Assembly (NCBI GenBank): GCA_024222295.1
Contig: JAAEPF010000033.1
Coordinates: 157,691 to 221,690, forward strand
DNA length: 64,000 nt
Direction: 5' to 3'
From: Actinomycetes bacterium
Lineage (GTDB): Bacteria > Actinomycetota > Acidimicrobiia > Acidimicrobiales > Microtrichaceae
The notes under the pieces are model-generated. The model searched no databases. It saw only the letters and a program-made list of their open reading frames with translations, and was not told the DNA's origin. The translations under genes were made by a program, and so were the position numbers. Positions 35,685-40,691 of the stretch are shown one piece after another (position 1 is the first letter of the stretch; every line of letters starts with the position of its first letter).

Positions 35685-38126
35685 TCAGGGCTGCCCATAC
35701 AGTGTGGTGCGCCGGCGCAGTGTGCGGCCGAGCGGTTGCACCAGTGCCCTGAAGTCCGGCTCGCCGACCTCCGTGCCGTGCTCGGCTCCAGCTGCACGCG
35801 AGATGTTCTCGTCCATCAGGGTGCCGCCAAGGTCGTTGGCGCCGGCGAGCAGCAGCTGGCGCATGCCGTCCATGCCGAGTTTCACCCATGACCCCTGGAT
35901 GTGGTCGATGTCACCCGCATACGCGATGCGGGCCACCGCGTGCATCAGGAGTACTTCGCGGAACGTCGGTCCGCGACGGGCCTTGCGCTGCAGGTAGATC
36001 GGCGATGCCATGTGCACGAACGGCAGGCCCACGAACTCGGTGAAGCCGCCGGTCTCGCGCTGCAGGTCGCGGGTGACCAGCAGGTGGCGCGCCCAGCTGC
36101 GGGGTTGTTCGATGGATCCGAACATGATCGTGACGTTGGAGCGAAGCCCCACGGAGTGCGCGGTGCGGTGGGCGTCGAGCCACTCTGCGGTGTCGACCTT
36201 GTCGGGGCAGAGCACCGCGCGCACCTCGTCGTCGAGGATCTCGGCAGCCGTGCCGGGAAGCGACCGCAGCCCGGCATCCATGAGCCTGCGCAGATAGTCG
36301 CCAAGCGGCTCGCCAAGGCGTTTGGCGCCCTCGGTGACCTCCAGGGCGGTGAACCCGTGGATGTGGATCCCCGGTGCCGCCTCCGACACGGCTCTCGTGA
36401 CGTCCACGTAGTAGTCACCGTCGAAATCGGGATGGATCCCGCCTTGCAGGCATACCTCTGTGGCTCCCGCATCCTGTGCCTCTGCGGCCCTGCCGGCGAT
36501 GTCGTCGAGGGTGAGGAGGTAGGGGTTGCCGCGCAGGTTGAGGCTCAGCGGCCCCTTTGAGAAACCGCAGAACCTGCACTTGAAGGTGCACACGTTGGTG
36601 TAGTTGATGTTGCGGTTGGCCACCCATGTGACCTCGTCGCCCACGATGCGCCGGCGCAGGTCGTCGGCCAGCGCGGCCACCTCGGCGACTTCGCGCCCCC
36701 GGGCGGTGAAGAGCGTCACGAGCTCCTCCTCACCGGGTTCCTGGCCCATTGCGACACCCTCGAGAACATCCATCACCGGGCCGCGCAGCGTCGGGCGGGC
36801 CTCGACCACGCTCAGCGCCGCCTTCCGCGGTTTCACCAGTTCGATCGGAGCCGTGGTCGCCCCGGAATACCACTGCGTCGAGCGGTCACCGATGATCACG
36901 CCCTCGGCGCCGTCGCCCACCTTGGCCTTCGCAGCCTCGGCGGTCTTCTCGGGGAACACCGAACCGGGATCGTCGCGCGCGAGGCCCTCGGCGTCGCTGC
37001 GGTCCATGACGGCGAAGCGGAGGTCGTCATCCAGCCATCGCGCGGGGTCGAGTGCGTGCTCCGGGTAGATGGTGAGCCTCGGGGCCAGCGTGTGCCCACC
37101 GGTCTCGGTGGCCGCTCGAAGTGCCTCGAGCGCCGGCCAGGGCCGCTCCGGGTTCACGTGGTCGGCGGTCACGGGCGACACACCGCCCCAGTCGTCGATG
37201 CCGCCGAGCAACAGCGGTGACAGGTCCTCGCTCAGGTTGGGGGGTGCCTGGAGGTGCACGTCGGTGGGCAGCAGCACCCGGGCCAGGGCGATCGCATCAT
37301 GGAACTCGTCGTCGGGGCACGGCGGGTGGTCGCTCATGGCTGTACCCGGCTTCGGCAGGAAGTTCTGCACGATCACTTCCTGCACGTGGCCGTGGCGGAG
37401 GTGCGAATCGGCGATGGCCGCCAACGCTTCGGCGCGGTCACGACGGCCTTCACCGATGCCGACGAGGATGCCGGTGGTGAAGGCGATGCCGAGCTCGCCG
37501 GCGGCCTCGAGCGTCTCGAGTCGTCGCTGCGGGGACTTGTCGGGTGCGCCGCGGTGGCATGCGAGGTCGTCACGCAGCGTCTCGAGCATCATGCCCTGCG
37601 ACGGAGCGACCGAGCGCAGCCTCGACAGCTCGGACGAGCCAAGTGCCCCCGGGTTGGCATGTGGGAGCAGCCCCGTTTCGCGCAGGACGCGACCGGCGAT
37701 GTCGACCAGGTAGTCGACGGTGGAGGAGTAGCCGTGACTCTCCAGCCAGGATGCTGCCACCGGGTAGCGCTGCTCGGGTGCCTCGCCGAGGGTGAACAGT
37801 GCTTCGTGACAGCCCGCCCGCGCCCCGCGGCGCGCGATGGCCAGCACCTCGTCGGGCTCGAGGAACGGCGCATCGAGCCGTGCCGGCGGCTGCGCGAACG
37901 TGCAGTAGCCACAACGGTCGCGGCACAGCATCGTGAGGGGGATGAACACCTTCGGAGAGAACGTGATCCGGGTTCCGAACCGGGCATCGCGGACCTCGCG
38001 CGCCACGGCTGCGAGTTCTGCCTGGTCACAGGAGAGCGCCTCTTCGACGCTCATGGCCGCACCGGCGACGCCGCTCGGGCGAGCGGGCGGTGCGGAGGTG
38101 AGCGCGGCTGGCGGGGGAGTGTTCAT
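35685..38126 (-). CDS. fbiC: FO synthase, fused CofG/CofH (7,8-didemethyl-8-hydroxy-5-deazariboflavin synthase)
   Basis: This radical-SAM bifunctional enzyme makes the F420 chromophore from tyrosine and the pyrimidine precursor of riboflavin. The CofG half has the [4Fe-4S] motif CRDRCGYC at residues 68-75; the CofH half carries CTFKCRFC in the second domain. At 813 residues it is full-length for the fused actinobacterial form. The start overlaps the HxlR gene by 4 nt (ATGA), so regulator and enzyme share a transcript. Presence of F420 chemistry in this organism is therefore supported. Confidence 0.95.
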   Translation of the reverse strand: MNTPPPAALTSAPPARPSGVAGAAMSVEEALSCDQAELAAVAREVRDARFGTRITFSPKVFIPLTMLCRDRCGYCTFAQPPARLDAPFLEPDEVLAIARRGARAGCHEALFTLGEAPEQRYPVAASWLESHGYSSTVDYLVDIAGRVLRETGLLPHANPGALGSSELSRLRSVAPSQGMMLETLRDDLACHRGAPDKSPQRRLETLEAAGELGIAFTTGILVGIGEGRRDRAEALAAIADSHLRHGHVQEVIVQNFLPKPGTAMSDHPPCPDDEFHDAIALARVLLPTDVHLQAPPNLSEDLSPLLLGGIDDWGGVSPVTADHVNPERPWPALEALRAATETGGHTLAPRLTIYPEHALDPARWLDDDLRFAVMDRSDAEGLARDDPGSVFPEKTAEAAKAKVGDGAEGVIIGDRSTQWYSGATTAPIELVKPRKAALSVVEARPTLRGPVMDVLEGVAMGQEPGEEELVTLFTARGREVAEVAALADDLRRRIVGDEVTWVANRNINYTNVCTFKCRFCGFSKGPLSLNLRGNPYLLTLDDIAGRAAEAQDAGATEVCLQGGIHPDFDGDYYVDVTRAVSEAAPGIHIHGFTALEVTEGAKRLGEPLGDYLRRLMDAGLRSLPGTAAEILDDEVRAVLCPDKVDTAEWLDAHRTAHSVGLRSNVTIMFGSIEQPRSWARHLLVTRDLQRETGGFTEFVGLPFVHMASPIYLQRKARRGPTFREVLLMHAVARIAYAGDIDHIQGSWVKLGMDGMRQLLLAGANDLGGTLMDENISRAAGAEHGTEVGEPDFRALVQPLGRTLRRRTTLYGQP

Positions 38127-38629
38127 GGGGCAGTCCCTTGGGCCACGCCGACCTCGACGCGATCGGGCGACGCTCCCGGGCCGGGGTGTCCGGCGATCTC
38201 GGTGGGTCCGAACTCGCGGTCACAGCACTCGCAGTGGAAGCCGAGGTCGACCTCGGTGCCGCAGGGTTCGTGGACCAGCACCGTGGGGGGCCCACCCTCG
38301 CTCAGCCAACGGTCTCCCCACTGCATCAGCCCGACCAGCACGGGGGAGAGTTGACGGCCCATCTCGGTGAGCCGGTACTCATAACGGGGCGGATGCTCCA
38401 TGTAGCGGCGCTTCTCCAGCACGCCCTCGCCCACGAGACTGTGCAGTCGCTCCGACAGCACGGCGCGCGGGATGTGCAGGTCCCGGCGGATCTCCTCGAA
38501 GCGGCGGATTCCGCGAAATGTGTCCCGCAGGATCAGGATCGACCAGCGGTCGCCGATCACGTCGAGGGAGCGAGCGATCGAGCAGGCCGGTTCAGACGTG
38601 TCGGAATCGGGTATCGGGTTGGCAGCCAC
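38123..38629 (-). CDS. HxlR-family transcriptional regulator
   Basis: This 168-residue winged-helix regulator has the family signature SILILRDTFRGIRRFEEIRRDLHIPRAVLSERLHSL and the wing YRLTEMGRQLSPVL. The C-terminal extension is unusual for the family: a Cys-rich segment (CGTEV...HCECCDREF) that could bind zinc, suggesting redox or metal sensing. It is coupled to fbiC. Two 15-nt sites upstream and a leaderless-type -10 box suggest autoregulation. Confidence 0.88.
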   Translation of the reverse strand: MAANPIPDSDTSEPACSIARSLDVIGDRWSILILRDTFRGIRRFEEIRRDLHIPRAVLSERLHSLVGEGVLEKRRYMEHPPRYEYRLTEMGRQLSPVLVGLMQWGDRWLSEGGPPTVLVHEPCGTEVDLGFHCECCDREFGPTEIAGHPGPGASPDRVEVGVAQGTAP

Positions 38630-38635
38630 GGCGGC

Positions 38636-38641
38636 ACCCTA
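38636..38641 (-). promoter_or_regulatory. Putative -10 box of hxlR gene, leaderless
   Basis: On the minus strand this reads TAGGGT, ending 6 nt before the GTG at 38629. Confidence 0.45.
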
Positions 38642-38646
38642 ACAAG

Positions 38647-38661
38647 GTTCGGATTCCGAAC
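38647..38661. promoter_or_regulatory. Candidate HxlR operator 1 (perfect palindrome)
   Basis: GTTCGGATTCCGAAC is a perfect inverted repeat of 7 + 1 + 7 nt. It lies immediately upstream of the -10 box of the HxlR gene, where binding would occlude the promoter. Confidence 0.6.
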
Positions 38662-38668
38662 TCAGTCA

Positions 38669-38683
38669 GTTCACTATCCGAAC
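38669..38683. promoter_or_regulatory. Candidate HxlR operator 2 (imperfect copy)
   Basis: GTTCACTATCCGAAC matches operator 1 at the outer bases and its 3' half, and its centre is 22 nt from that of operator 1, about two helical turns. This spacing suits cooperative binding of two dimers on one face. Confidence 0.5.
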
Positions 38684-38711: not shown

Positions 38712-40691
38712 TCAGGCCAGCAGGCCGCGAGCAGCCGCCGACACCGCGTCGGCCGTGATTCCCAGCTCGGCCAGCACCCGGGAGCCGGGTGCCGACGCTC
38801 CGAAGCGGTCGATTCCAATGCTCGCCTGGGCCCACCGCTGCCAACCGGTGGTCACGCCCGCTTCGACCGACACCGTAGGCACGCCGGCCGGCAGCACGCT
38901 TTCGCGGTAGTCCGCGCTCTGGGCGTCGAACAGTTCCCATGAAGGCATCGACACCACCCGCACCGCGAGGCCGTCAGAGCGCAGTTGGTCGGCCGCCTCG
39001 GCGGCCACGGCAACCTCGGTGCCGGTTCCGACGAGCACCACCTCCGGTCCGGGGTCACCCTGCAGCACGTAGGCACCATTTGCCACCCCCTCGCGGGCGA
39101 ACTCGGCCGAGCCGGTGAGGGTGGGCGTCGCCTGGCGGCTGGTGATCATCGCCACCGGGCCGTTGCCCTCGACGGCGGCCTTCCATGCGCCGGCCACCTC
39201 GTTGCCGTCGGCCGGACGTATCACGGTGAGGTCCGGAATCAGCCGCAGGGACATCACCTGCTCGATCGGTTGGTGGGTGGGCCCGTCCTCGCCGACCCCA
39301 ACCGAGTCGTGGCTCCAGACGAAGATGCACTTGGCCTTGGACAGCGCAGCGACGCGCACCGCGCCACGCATGTAGTCCGAGAACACGAGGAAGGTGCCCG
39401 AGATGGGCAGCACACCGCCGTGCTTGGCCGCGCCCACGATGGCGGAACCCATCGCGTGCTCACGGATGCCGTAGTGCACCTGGCGGCCACTGCGGGTCTC
39501 CGGCTCCAGTGCATCGGCATCGGGAAGCTTCGTGCCCGTGTTGCCCGTGAGGTCAGCGGAGCCACCGAGAACGCCGGGCACGTGGCGGTCGACCACTGCC
39601 AGCACCTTCTGGTTGGCGGCCCGTGTCGCCGGGGAATCCTCGGGGCCGAAGGTGGGCAGGTCCGAATCCCAGTCCGCGCCGACCGGGCGGGCGGCCATTG
39701 TGGCGTCCCATTCGGCCTCCCGGCCCTCGAGGGCGACCGCGCTGCGCTGCTCCCAGTCGGTGCGCGCAACCGAGCCCCGGCGGCCGGCCTCGCGGTAGTA
39801 GTCGAGCACCTCGTCGGGCACCCAGAAGGGCTCGTCGGGAATGCCCATGACAGCCTTTGTTTCGGCGATGTCCTCCTCGCTGAACGCGAGGCCGTGAGCT
39901 GCGGGGTCATCGGTGTGGGTGGGCGACGGATAACCGATGTGGCTGCGCATGATCACGAGGCTCGGGCGCTCCTGCTCATCCATTCCCGCTCGGATCGCGC
40001 CCTCGAGGGCGTCGAGGTCCTCGGAAGCCTCACCGAGGTCCTGCACGTGCCAGCCATAGGCCTCGAAACGCTTCACCGGGTCGTCGGTGAGGGCTATCTC
40101 GGTGGGCCCGTCGATCGACACATGGTTGTCGTCATAGACGTACACCATCCGGCCGAGACGCAGGTGGCCCGCGAGCGACGCCGCTTCGTGGGACACACCT
40201 TCCTCGAGGTCGCCATCGGAGACGATTGCGTGGATGTGGTGGTCGGACACCTCTGTGCCGAAGCGCTCGCGCAGTGACTGCTCGGCCATCGCCATGCCGA
40301 CGCCGTTCGCGAAGCCCTGCCCCAGCGGTCCGGTGGTCACCTCGACTCCGGCGGTGTGCCCGGCCTCCGGGTGGCCAGGTGTGGCGGATCCCCACTGGCG
40401 GAACTGGCGGAGGTCTTCGAGCGTGAGTCCGTAGCCGGTCAGGTGGAGCATCGAGTAGAGCAGGATCGACGCGTGGCCGGGGCTGAGGATGAAACGGTCG
40501 CGGTCGGCCCAGTGGGGCGCCGATGCGTCGTAACGCAGAATCCTCGTGAACAGCACATGTGCCAGCGGGGCGAGCGCCATGGCGGTTCCCTGGTGGCCCG
40601 AGTTGGCAGCCCGCGGGCCATCCATCGCGAGCCCGCGGATGACGTTGATCCCGAGCGCCTCGATGTCGGTCTCGCCCTGCGCTGAAGCCAT
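38712..40691 (-). CDS. tkt: Transketolase
   Basis: This is a thiamine diphosphate-dependent enzyme of the pentose phosphate pathway, 659 residues. The thiamine motif begins VSDGDLEEGVSHEAASLAGHL, GHQGTAMALAPLAHVL is the N-terminal signature, and the pyrimidine domain contains GIREHAMGSAIVGAAKHGG and HDSVGVGEDGPTHQPIE. A GGAG site lies 6 nt before the ATG. It is in the same direction as the HxlR and fbiC genes, but 80 nt with the HxlR operators separates them. Confidence 0.96.
   Translation of the reverse strand: MASAQGETDIEALGINVIRGLAMDGPRAANSGHQGTAMALAPLAHVLFTRILRYDASAPHWADRDRFILSPGHASILLYSMLHLTGYGLTLEDLRQFRQWGSATPGHPEAGHTAGVEVTTGPLGQGFANGVGMAMAEQSLRERFGTEVSDHHIHAIVSDGDLEEGVSHEAASLAGHLRLGRMVYVYDDNHVSIDGPTEIALTDDPVKRFEAYGWHVQDLGEASEDLDALEGAIRAGMDEQERPSLVIMRSHIGYPSPTHTDDPAAHGLAFSEEDIAETKAVMGIPDEPFWVPDEVLDYYREAGRRGSVARTDWEQRSAVALEGREAEWDATMAARPVGADWDSDLPTFGPEDSPATRAANQKVLAVVDRHVPGVLGGSADLTGNTGTKLPDADALEPETRSGRQVHYGIREHAMGSAIVGAAKHGGVLPISGTFLVFSDYMRGAVRVAALSKAKCIFVWSHDSVGVGEDGPTHQPIEQVMSLRLIPDLTVIRPADGNEVAGAWKAAVEGNGPVAMITSRQATPTLTGSAEFAREGVANGAYVLQGDPGPEVVLVGTGTEVAVAAEAADQLRSDGLAVRVVSMPSWELFDAQSADYRESVLPAGVPTVSVEAGVTTGWQRWAQASIGIDRFGASAPGSRVLAELGITADAVSAAARGLLA

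Follow-up and report, generated by a model that had tools for sequence, protein, structure and literature searches.

The window, by which we mean the whole 64-kb stretch of DNA that was analyzed, contains a gene for an HxlR-family regulator followed by fbiC, the gene of FO synthase (Table 1). The regulator scores 91.4 bits against the HxlR domain model (Pfam PF01638, cut-off 20.8). FbiC passes both equivalog domains, TIGR03550 with 446.6 bits (cut-off 213.35) and TIGR03551 with 501.8 (cut-off 374.1), and reaches 1010.9 with the two-domain fused model PRK09234, just under its cut-off of 1018. The overlap of the two genes had been located and described correctly in the original prediction; in 17 of 30 related loci, too, HxlR and fbiC share an in-frame NTGA. 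The HxlR protein consists of a winged helix-turn-helix domain, in which residue 56 opens the predicted recognition helix, a cysteine near the N-terminus (Cys16), and a tail with the motif H120-x2-C123-x9-C133-x2-C136. Of 30 related loci, 19 have a transketolase gene ahead of hxlR and running the same way, 9 of them within 300 nt, and read-through from it into hxlR-fbiC is possible.

Table 1. Genes and predicted regulatory elements at the hxlR-fbiC locus (positions in the window)
Feature	Position	Strand	Remarks
fbiC (FO synthase, CofG + CofH domains)	35685-38126	minus	813 aa; presumed second operon gene
ATGA overlap	38126-38123		HxlR gene end / fbiC start
HxlR-family regulator gene	38123-38629	minus	GTG start, 168 aa; Pfam HxlR match
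Presumed -10 box TAGGGT	38636-38641	minus	5 nt below the palindrome, 6 nt before GTG
Proximal operator (predicted) GTTCGGAATCCGAAC	38647-38661	minus	perfect 15-nt odd palindrome; between the -35 and -10 positions
Presumed weak -35 TGAGTT	38659-38664	minus	17-nt spacing
Distal operator copy (predicted) GTTCGGATAGTGAAC	38669-38683	minus	22 nt upstream of the proximal site, start to start
Transketolase	38712-40691	minus	ends 28 nt above the distal operator copy

A perfect palindrome and an imperfect copy, 22 nt apart and upstream of TAGGGT, had been noted, and all of these elements were found as placed. On the minus strand, the left half of the distal copy (GTTCGGA) is identical to that of the proximal site, whereas its right half (AGTGAAC) differs. 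The pattern GTTC-N7-GAAC has two matches in the 64-kb window, both at the HxlR promoter, against 0.47 expected; two matches anywhere in the window were obtained in 9 of 100 shuffles. Within the 3.76-Mb genome, GTTCGGANTCCGAAC occurs once when no mismatch is allowed, and the tandem array with at most one mismatch also occurs once, its backwards control giving none; one-mismatch single sites were found at two other places (C51 and C95). Two other F420 genes, cofD and cofC, were considered as targets and rejected, as GTTC-N7-GAAC is absent from the cofD locus (C25) and the cofC locus (C2) of this genome, as fetched; the looser GTT-N9-AAC has one match in the region of the cofD locus, far from cofD.

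The association between the two genes was surveyed in 61 genomes, comprising the source genome and its relatives, with an HxlR match in 52 and fbiC in 56. By coordinates, HxlR is the gene immediately ahead of fbiC in 33 of the 56 genomes with fbiC, co-directional in 32 and divergent in one; in the remaining 23, fbiC has no adjoining HxlR. By group, the linkage holds in 25 of 29 genomes of the window's family and in 8 of 27 from other families of the order, and one of the four exceptions within the family (G029) has just 142 nt of contig upstream. In a sample of 80 named fbiC loci, which partly overlaps the 56 genomes, HxlR adjoins fbiC in 28 (23 co-directional and 5 divergent), with three loci too short to tell. 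Across the phylum, a strong HxlR match was found in 35 of 246 genomes. Among 29 HxlR loci of this sample, fbiC lies within 1.5 kb in five, all from the same order; it was found at that distance in none of 22 loci from other classes, three of which have cut flanks. The flanks of L171, an HxlR locus of the phylum sample, are cut as well. In an HxlR tree of 81 rows (60 linked, including near-copies, and 21 unlinked), the linked label requires three changes versus 18.8 in shuffles, and one change for the fbiC-linked group is found in 34% of the bootstrap trees; a single origin of the linkage is conceivable.

The linkage was also kept through an inversion of orientation. In one branch (L075, L096, L105, L121, L124, L139, L174, L181 and L183), HxlR is divergent from fbiC and the N-terminal Cys is lost; three of these nine loci have no dyad by the rule defined below. 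Two further fbiC genes, L060 and L071, come from bins labelled Acidobacteria and Thermoanaerobacterales, and their products are 70-74% identical to the FbiC of the window, which may reflect either wrong bin labels or transfer.

The regions upstream of linked HxlR genes were taken from two collections, and the merging of near-identical ones reduced them from 68 to 57 distinct regions. A dyad was defined as GTT-N9-AAC with at least 2 of the 4 inner pairs. By this rule, a dyad precedes 41 of the 57 linked HxlR genes (0.66 expected) and none of the 54 fbiC genes without HxlR (0.36 expected), and the strict GTTC-N7-GAAC is present in 29 of the 57 linked regions (0.32 expected) versus none of the same 54. 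A test blind to the letters gave a mild signal, with 11 perfect dyads in the 57 regions versus 1.0 expected and 3 in the 54 controls versus 1.5. A conserved HxlR-fbiC pair without palindromes, which would have spoken against the original prediction, was looked for and is not the rule, though 16 of the 57 regions have no dyad as defined; some of these show degenerate repeats by eye, which were not counted.

In the window's family, none of the 26 regions lacks a strict site: 17 carry a strict tandem, two a tandem with a mismatch, and seven a single site. Four of the 17 tandems (L017, L019, L021 and L022) contain three operators at exact 22-nt steps, and the spacing of neighbouring strict sites is 22 nt in all but one of 21 cases, the exception being 23 nt (a third match in L020, inside the coding part, was excluded from the counts). 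The two operator copies named in the original prediction are present in the window, but as a rule for the family they do not hold, given the seven regions with one site and the four with three. A search for the tandem GTTC-N7-GAAC-N7-GTTC-N7-GAAC, with at most one mismatch, found it in 19 of 33 family genomes, always at the HxlR promoter; a single genome has a further copy at another place, with one mismatch (G030:C155), and the backwards control gave none. In the other families of the order with a linked HxlR, the half-site is mostly GTTG or GTTT.

The position of the dyads relative to the promoter varies little. A scan for consensus sigma-70 promoters found none at the window locus, so that the promoter proposed there is assigned by position and conservation only; many relatives have TTGGTT at the presumed -35 place. 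Of the 51 linked regions that have a site, 47 show a TAnnnT box starting 0-10 nt below the operator (at 5 nt in 18 regions, at 7-10 nt in 21, at 0 nt in 5, and at 4 or 6 nt in 3); in one more the box starts at 13 nt, and in three a search over 20 nt found none. A start codon follows the box by at most 12 nt in 45 of the 51, the reading frame having been checked in the window only, and hxlR would accordingly have a leaderless start. Given its place between the -35 and -10 positions, a protein bound to the dyad should obstruct the polymerase, which fits steric repression.

This geometry bears on two other readings of the palindromes. In the first, they would form the transketolase terminator or an RNA hairpin, in keeping with the fact that this gene, which shares the strand, ends 28 nt above the distal site. 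However, no terminator-like site and no T-run were found at the palindromes, the dyad would sit above the inferred transcription start, and transketolase is within 300 nt in only the 9 of 30 loci mentioned above, yet the strict dyad is kept in every region of the family. This explanation is almost certainly wrong and was rejected. In the second, HxlR would be an activator of fbiC, its bound dimers raising promoter activity upon a signal, much as B. subtilis HxlR activates hxlAB in its formaldehyde-bound form, according to a passage of PMC7835342. The additional distal site that relatives often have, 22 bp away and above the -35, would suit such a role, but the proximal site occupies the -35/-10 spacer wherever the box is recognizable, where it should obstruct the polymerase, and the seven family regions with one site have the proximal one alone, which makes activation improbable.

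Another question is whether the protein that reads the dyads is the adjoining HxlR. They could belong to a different regulator, next to which the HxlR gene is incidental, since dyads of a like style are also found before HxlR genes unlinked to fbiC. These unlinked HxlRs come from the same order and from other actinobacterial classes (L150-L169 and L172-L198), and GTT-N9-AAC precedes their own gene in 8 of 15 scored within L150-L169 and in 14 of 22 scored from the other classes, some of them in tandem; many combine GTTGC-type half-sites with Asn56. However, dyads in front of unlinked HxlR genes point to HxlR itself, no dyad occurs at any of the 54 fbiC loci without HxlR, and the fourth base of the half-site tracks residue 56 of the adjoining HxlR. 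A different regulator is therefore very improbable. Because unlinked HxlRs often carry like dyads, autoregulation by means of them looks like a trait of this HxlR branch.

In the predicted model of the protein (pLDDT 86.8, pTM 0.70), residue 56 starts helix 55-67, which by its order would be the counterpart of helix 4 of B. subtilis HxlR, described as DNA-binding in a passage of PMC7835342. The covariation was counted in dyad-bearing HxlRs, both linked and unlinked, using one dyad per locus, the one with the most pairs, picked regardless of residue 56; 23 rows that lacked a GTT-N9-AAC site, 14 of which were Asn-type, and five with the helix off pattern were not scored. With Ala56, base 4 is C in 42 of 42 half-sites, with Pro56 in 30 of 32, and with Lys or Ser at this position in 6 of 6, whereas the 70 half-sites associated with Asn56 divide into 42 with G, 19 with T and 9 with C. 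The relation holds in 72 of the 75 unambiguous rows and fails in 3; counter to it are three Asn56 rows with C/C sites. On a tree built without residue 56, the residue changes five times and the operator six times, and because only two independent pairs are supported, the covariation cannot reach significance. Since base 4 covaries with residue 56, each HxlR probably reads the site before its own gene, for which the relation is a strong hint and not proof. GTTC dyads are also found together with Pro, Lys or Ser at position 56 in L187, L189, L190, L195 and L197, from other actinobacterial classes, and the relation may therefore reach beyond the order, providing a simple recognition rule for a large and little-studied HxlR branch.

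The reading that we favour, and hold to be quite likely, is that hxlR and fbiC form an autoregulated operon, in which HxlR serves as a local autorepressor of FO synthesis and holds down both genes. HxlR, presumably as a dimer, would attach to its own leaderless promoter at the 15-bp GTT-N9-AAC dyad in the -35/-10 spacer and, at loci that have them, to one or two more sites spaced by 22 bp, two helical turns away and on the same face of the DNA. The bound protein would exclude RNA polymerase, lowering the expression of hxlR and fbiC together. The regulator would in this way determine how much is made of FO synthase, the first enzyme specific to F420 synthesis, with a signal that would relieve or strengthen the binding of HxlR. 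Binding, dimer formation, repression and the co-transcription of hxlR-fbiC are what we infer from the sequences. The comparison itself shows, besides the linkage, the conserved dyads with their placing and the covariation, that the dyads are close to unique in the genome. Autoregulation tied to fbiC had been part of the original prediction, and the comparison of sequences supports it strongly, through the gene linkage, the contrast in dyads between linked and HxlR-free loci, their placing over the promoter, and the covariation.

The pair is of interest because little is known about the regulation of F420, and how bacteria set the amount of this cofactor seems largely open. Literature searches among open-licence papers found no report of HxlR-fbiC coupling: none of these papers names HxlR together with fbiC, and of two that have HxlR together with F420, PMC3403918 is unrelated. 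In the long 2021 F420 review covered by a term search (PMC8498797), neither HxlR nor any of the regulation terms searched for appears. Most likely, the locus encodes a local autorepressor that acts on the first step specific to F420 and is conserved within one actinobacterial order. Since both regulator and operator have been kept next to fbiC, the control of F420 becomes testable with one purified protein, 60-bp DNA and a few ligands.

By sequence and predicted fold, the regulator shares its winged-helix domain with PA1374 (4gcv), PA1607 (2f2e), HypR/YybR (4a5m, 4a5n), YodB (5hs7), B. subtilis HxlR (7bzd-7bzg) and QsrR (4hqe); the best Foldseek matches of the model were 4gcv, 2f2e, HypR, YodB and HxlR, with E values from 6e-10 to 5e-5. 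No HxlR/DUF24 regulator of solved structure is known to act on F420 synthesis. The HxlR of the window resembles the DUF24 regulators in having a Cys at the N-terminal position, and differs from the closest structure, PA1374, which has no tail Cys in the alignment. The pair that handles formaldehyde in B. subtilis HxlR, a Cys-x-Lys in helix 1 (Cys11-Lys13), is absent here, the corresponding residues of the window protein being Cys16 and Ile18. Lys at position 18, two residues after Cys16, was found in none of 50 orthologues (L027, with a broken frame, was excluded from the protein alignments), and a formaldehyde-type HxlR was rejected on the grounds that all 50 lack Cys-x-Lys.

The original prediction had called the tail Cys-rich, but rather than a loose cluster of Cys it is an invariant motif, since His120, Cys123, Cys133 and Cys136 are conserved in 50 of 50 orthologues, and position 135 is Cys in three of the 50. 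The spacing H-x2-C-x9-C-x2-C resembles two zinc knuckles, with a four-ligand pattern, and the same motif, with small length changes, occurs in 16 of the 21 unlinked HxlRs tested. Because the motif is invariant and so common among unlinked HxlRs, the tail is most simply read as a structural zinc site, which is likelier than a sensor. Sensing of metal or redox state through the tail or Cys16, which would be compatible with repression, seems unlikely. It would draw on the four tail Cys of the window protein, on the redox nature of the F420 cofactor itself, and on Cys16, which matches the N-terminal sensing Cys of DUF24 regulators as described in a passage of PMC7835342 and is retained in 43 of 50 orthologues, the others having a gap (6) or Ala (1) there. 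Beside the zinc-like motif, what speaks against it is that Cys16 is missing in all nine HxlRs divergent from fbiC, six of which keep the dyad.

An attractive guess, which we put forward tentatively and as rather doubtful, is a dedicated feedback on F420 synthesis, in which HxlR would bind FO or F420, or sense their redox state, and close the hxlR-fbiC promoter when deazaflavin is plentiful. Such a regulator would have become associated with fbiC a single time, in Acidimicrobiia-like actinobacteria, after which the letters of its operator would have been retuned through residue 56. The special feature of this locus is the conserved coupling of one HxlR group to fbiC; the operator style and the tail are shared by unlinked HxlRs. 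In two genomes, an HxlR gene that lies away from fbiC has GTTC-type dyads (L150, at G056:C19, and L154, at G037:C31), and L150 has a pair of sites spaced by 22 nt, like those of the window.
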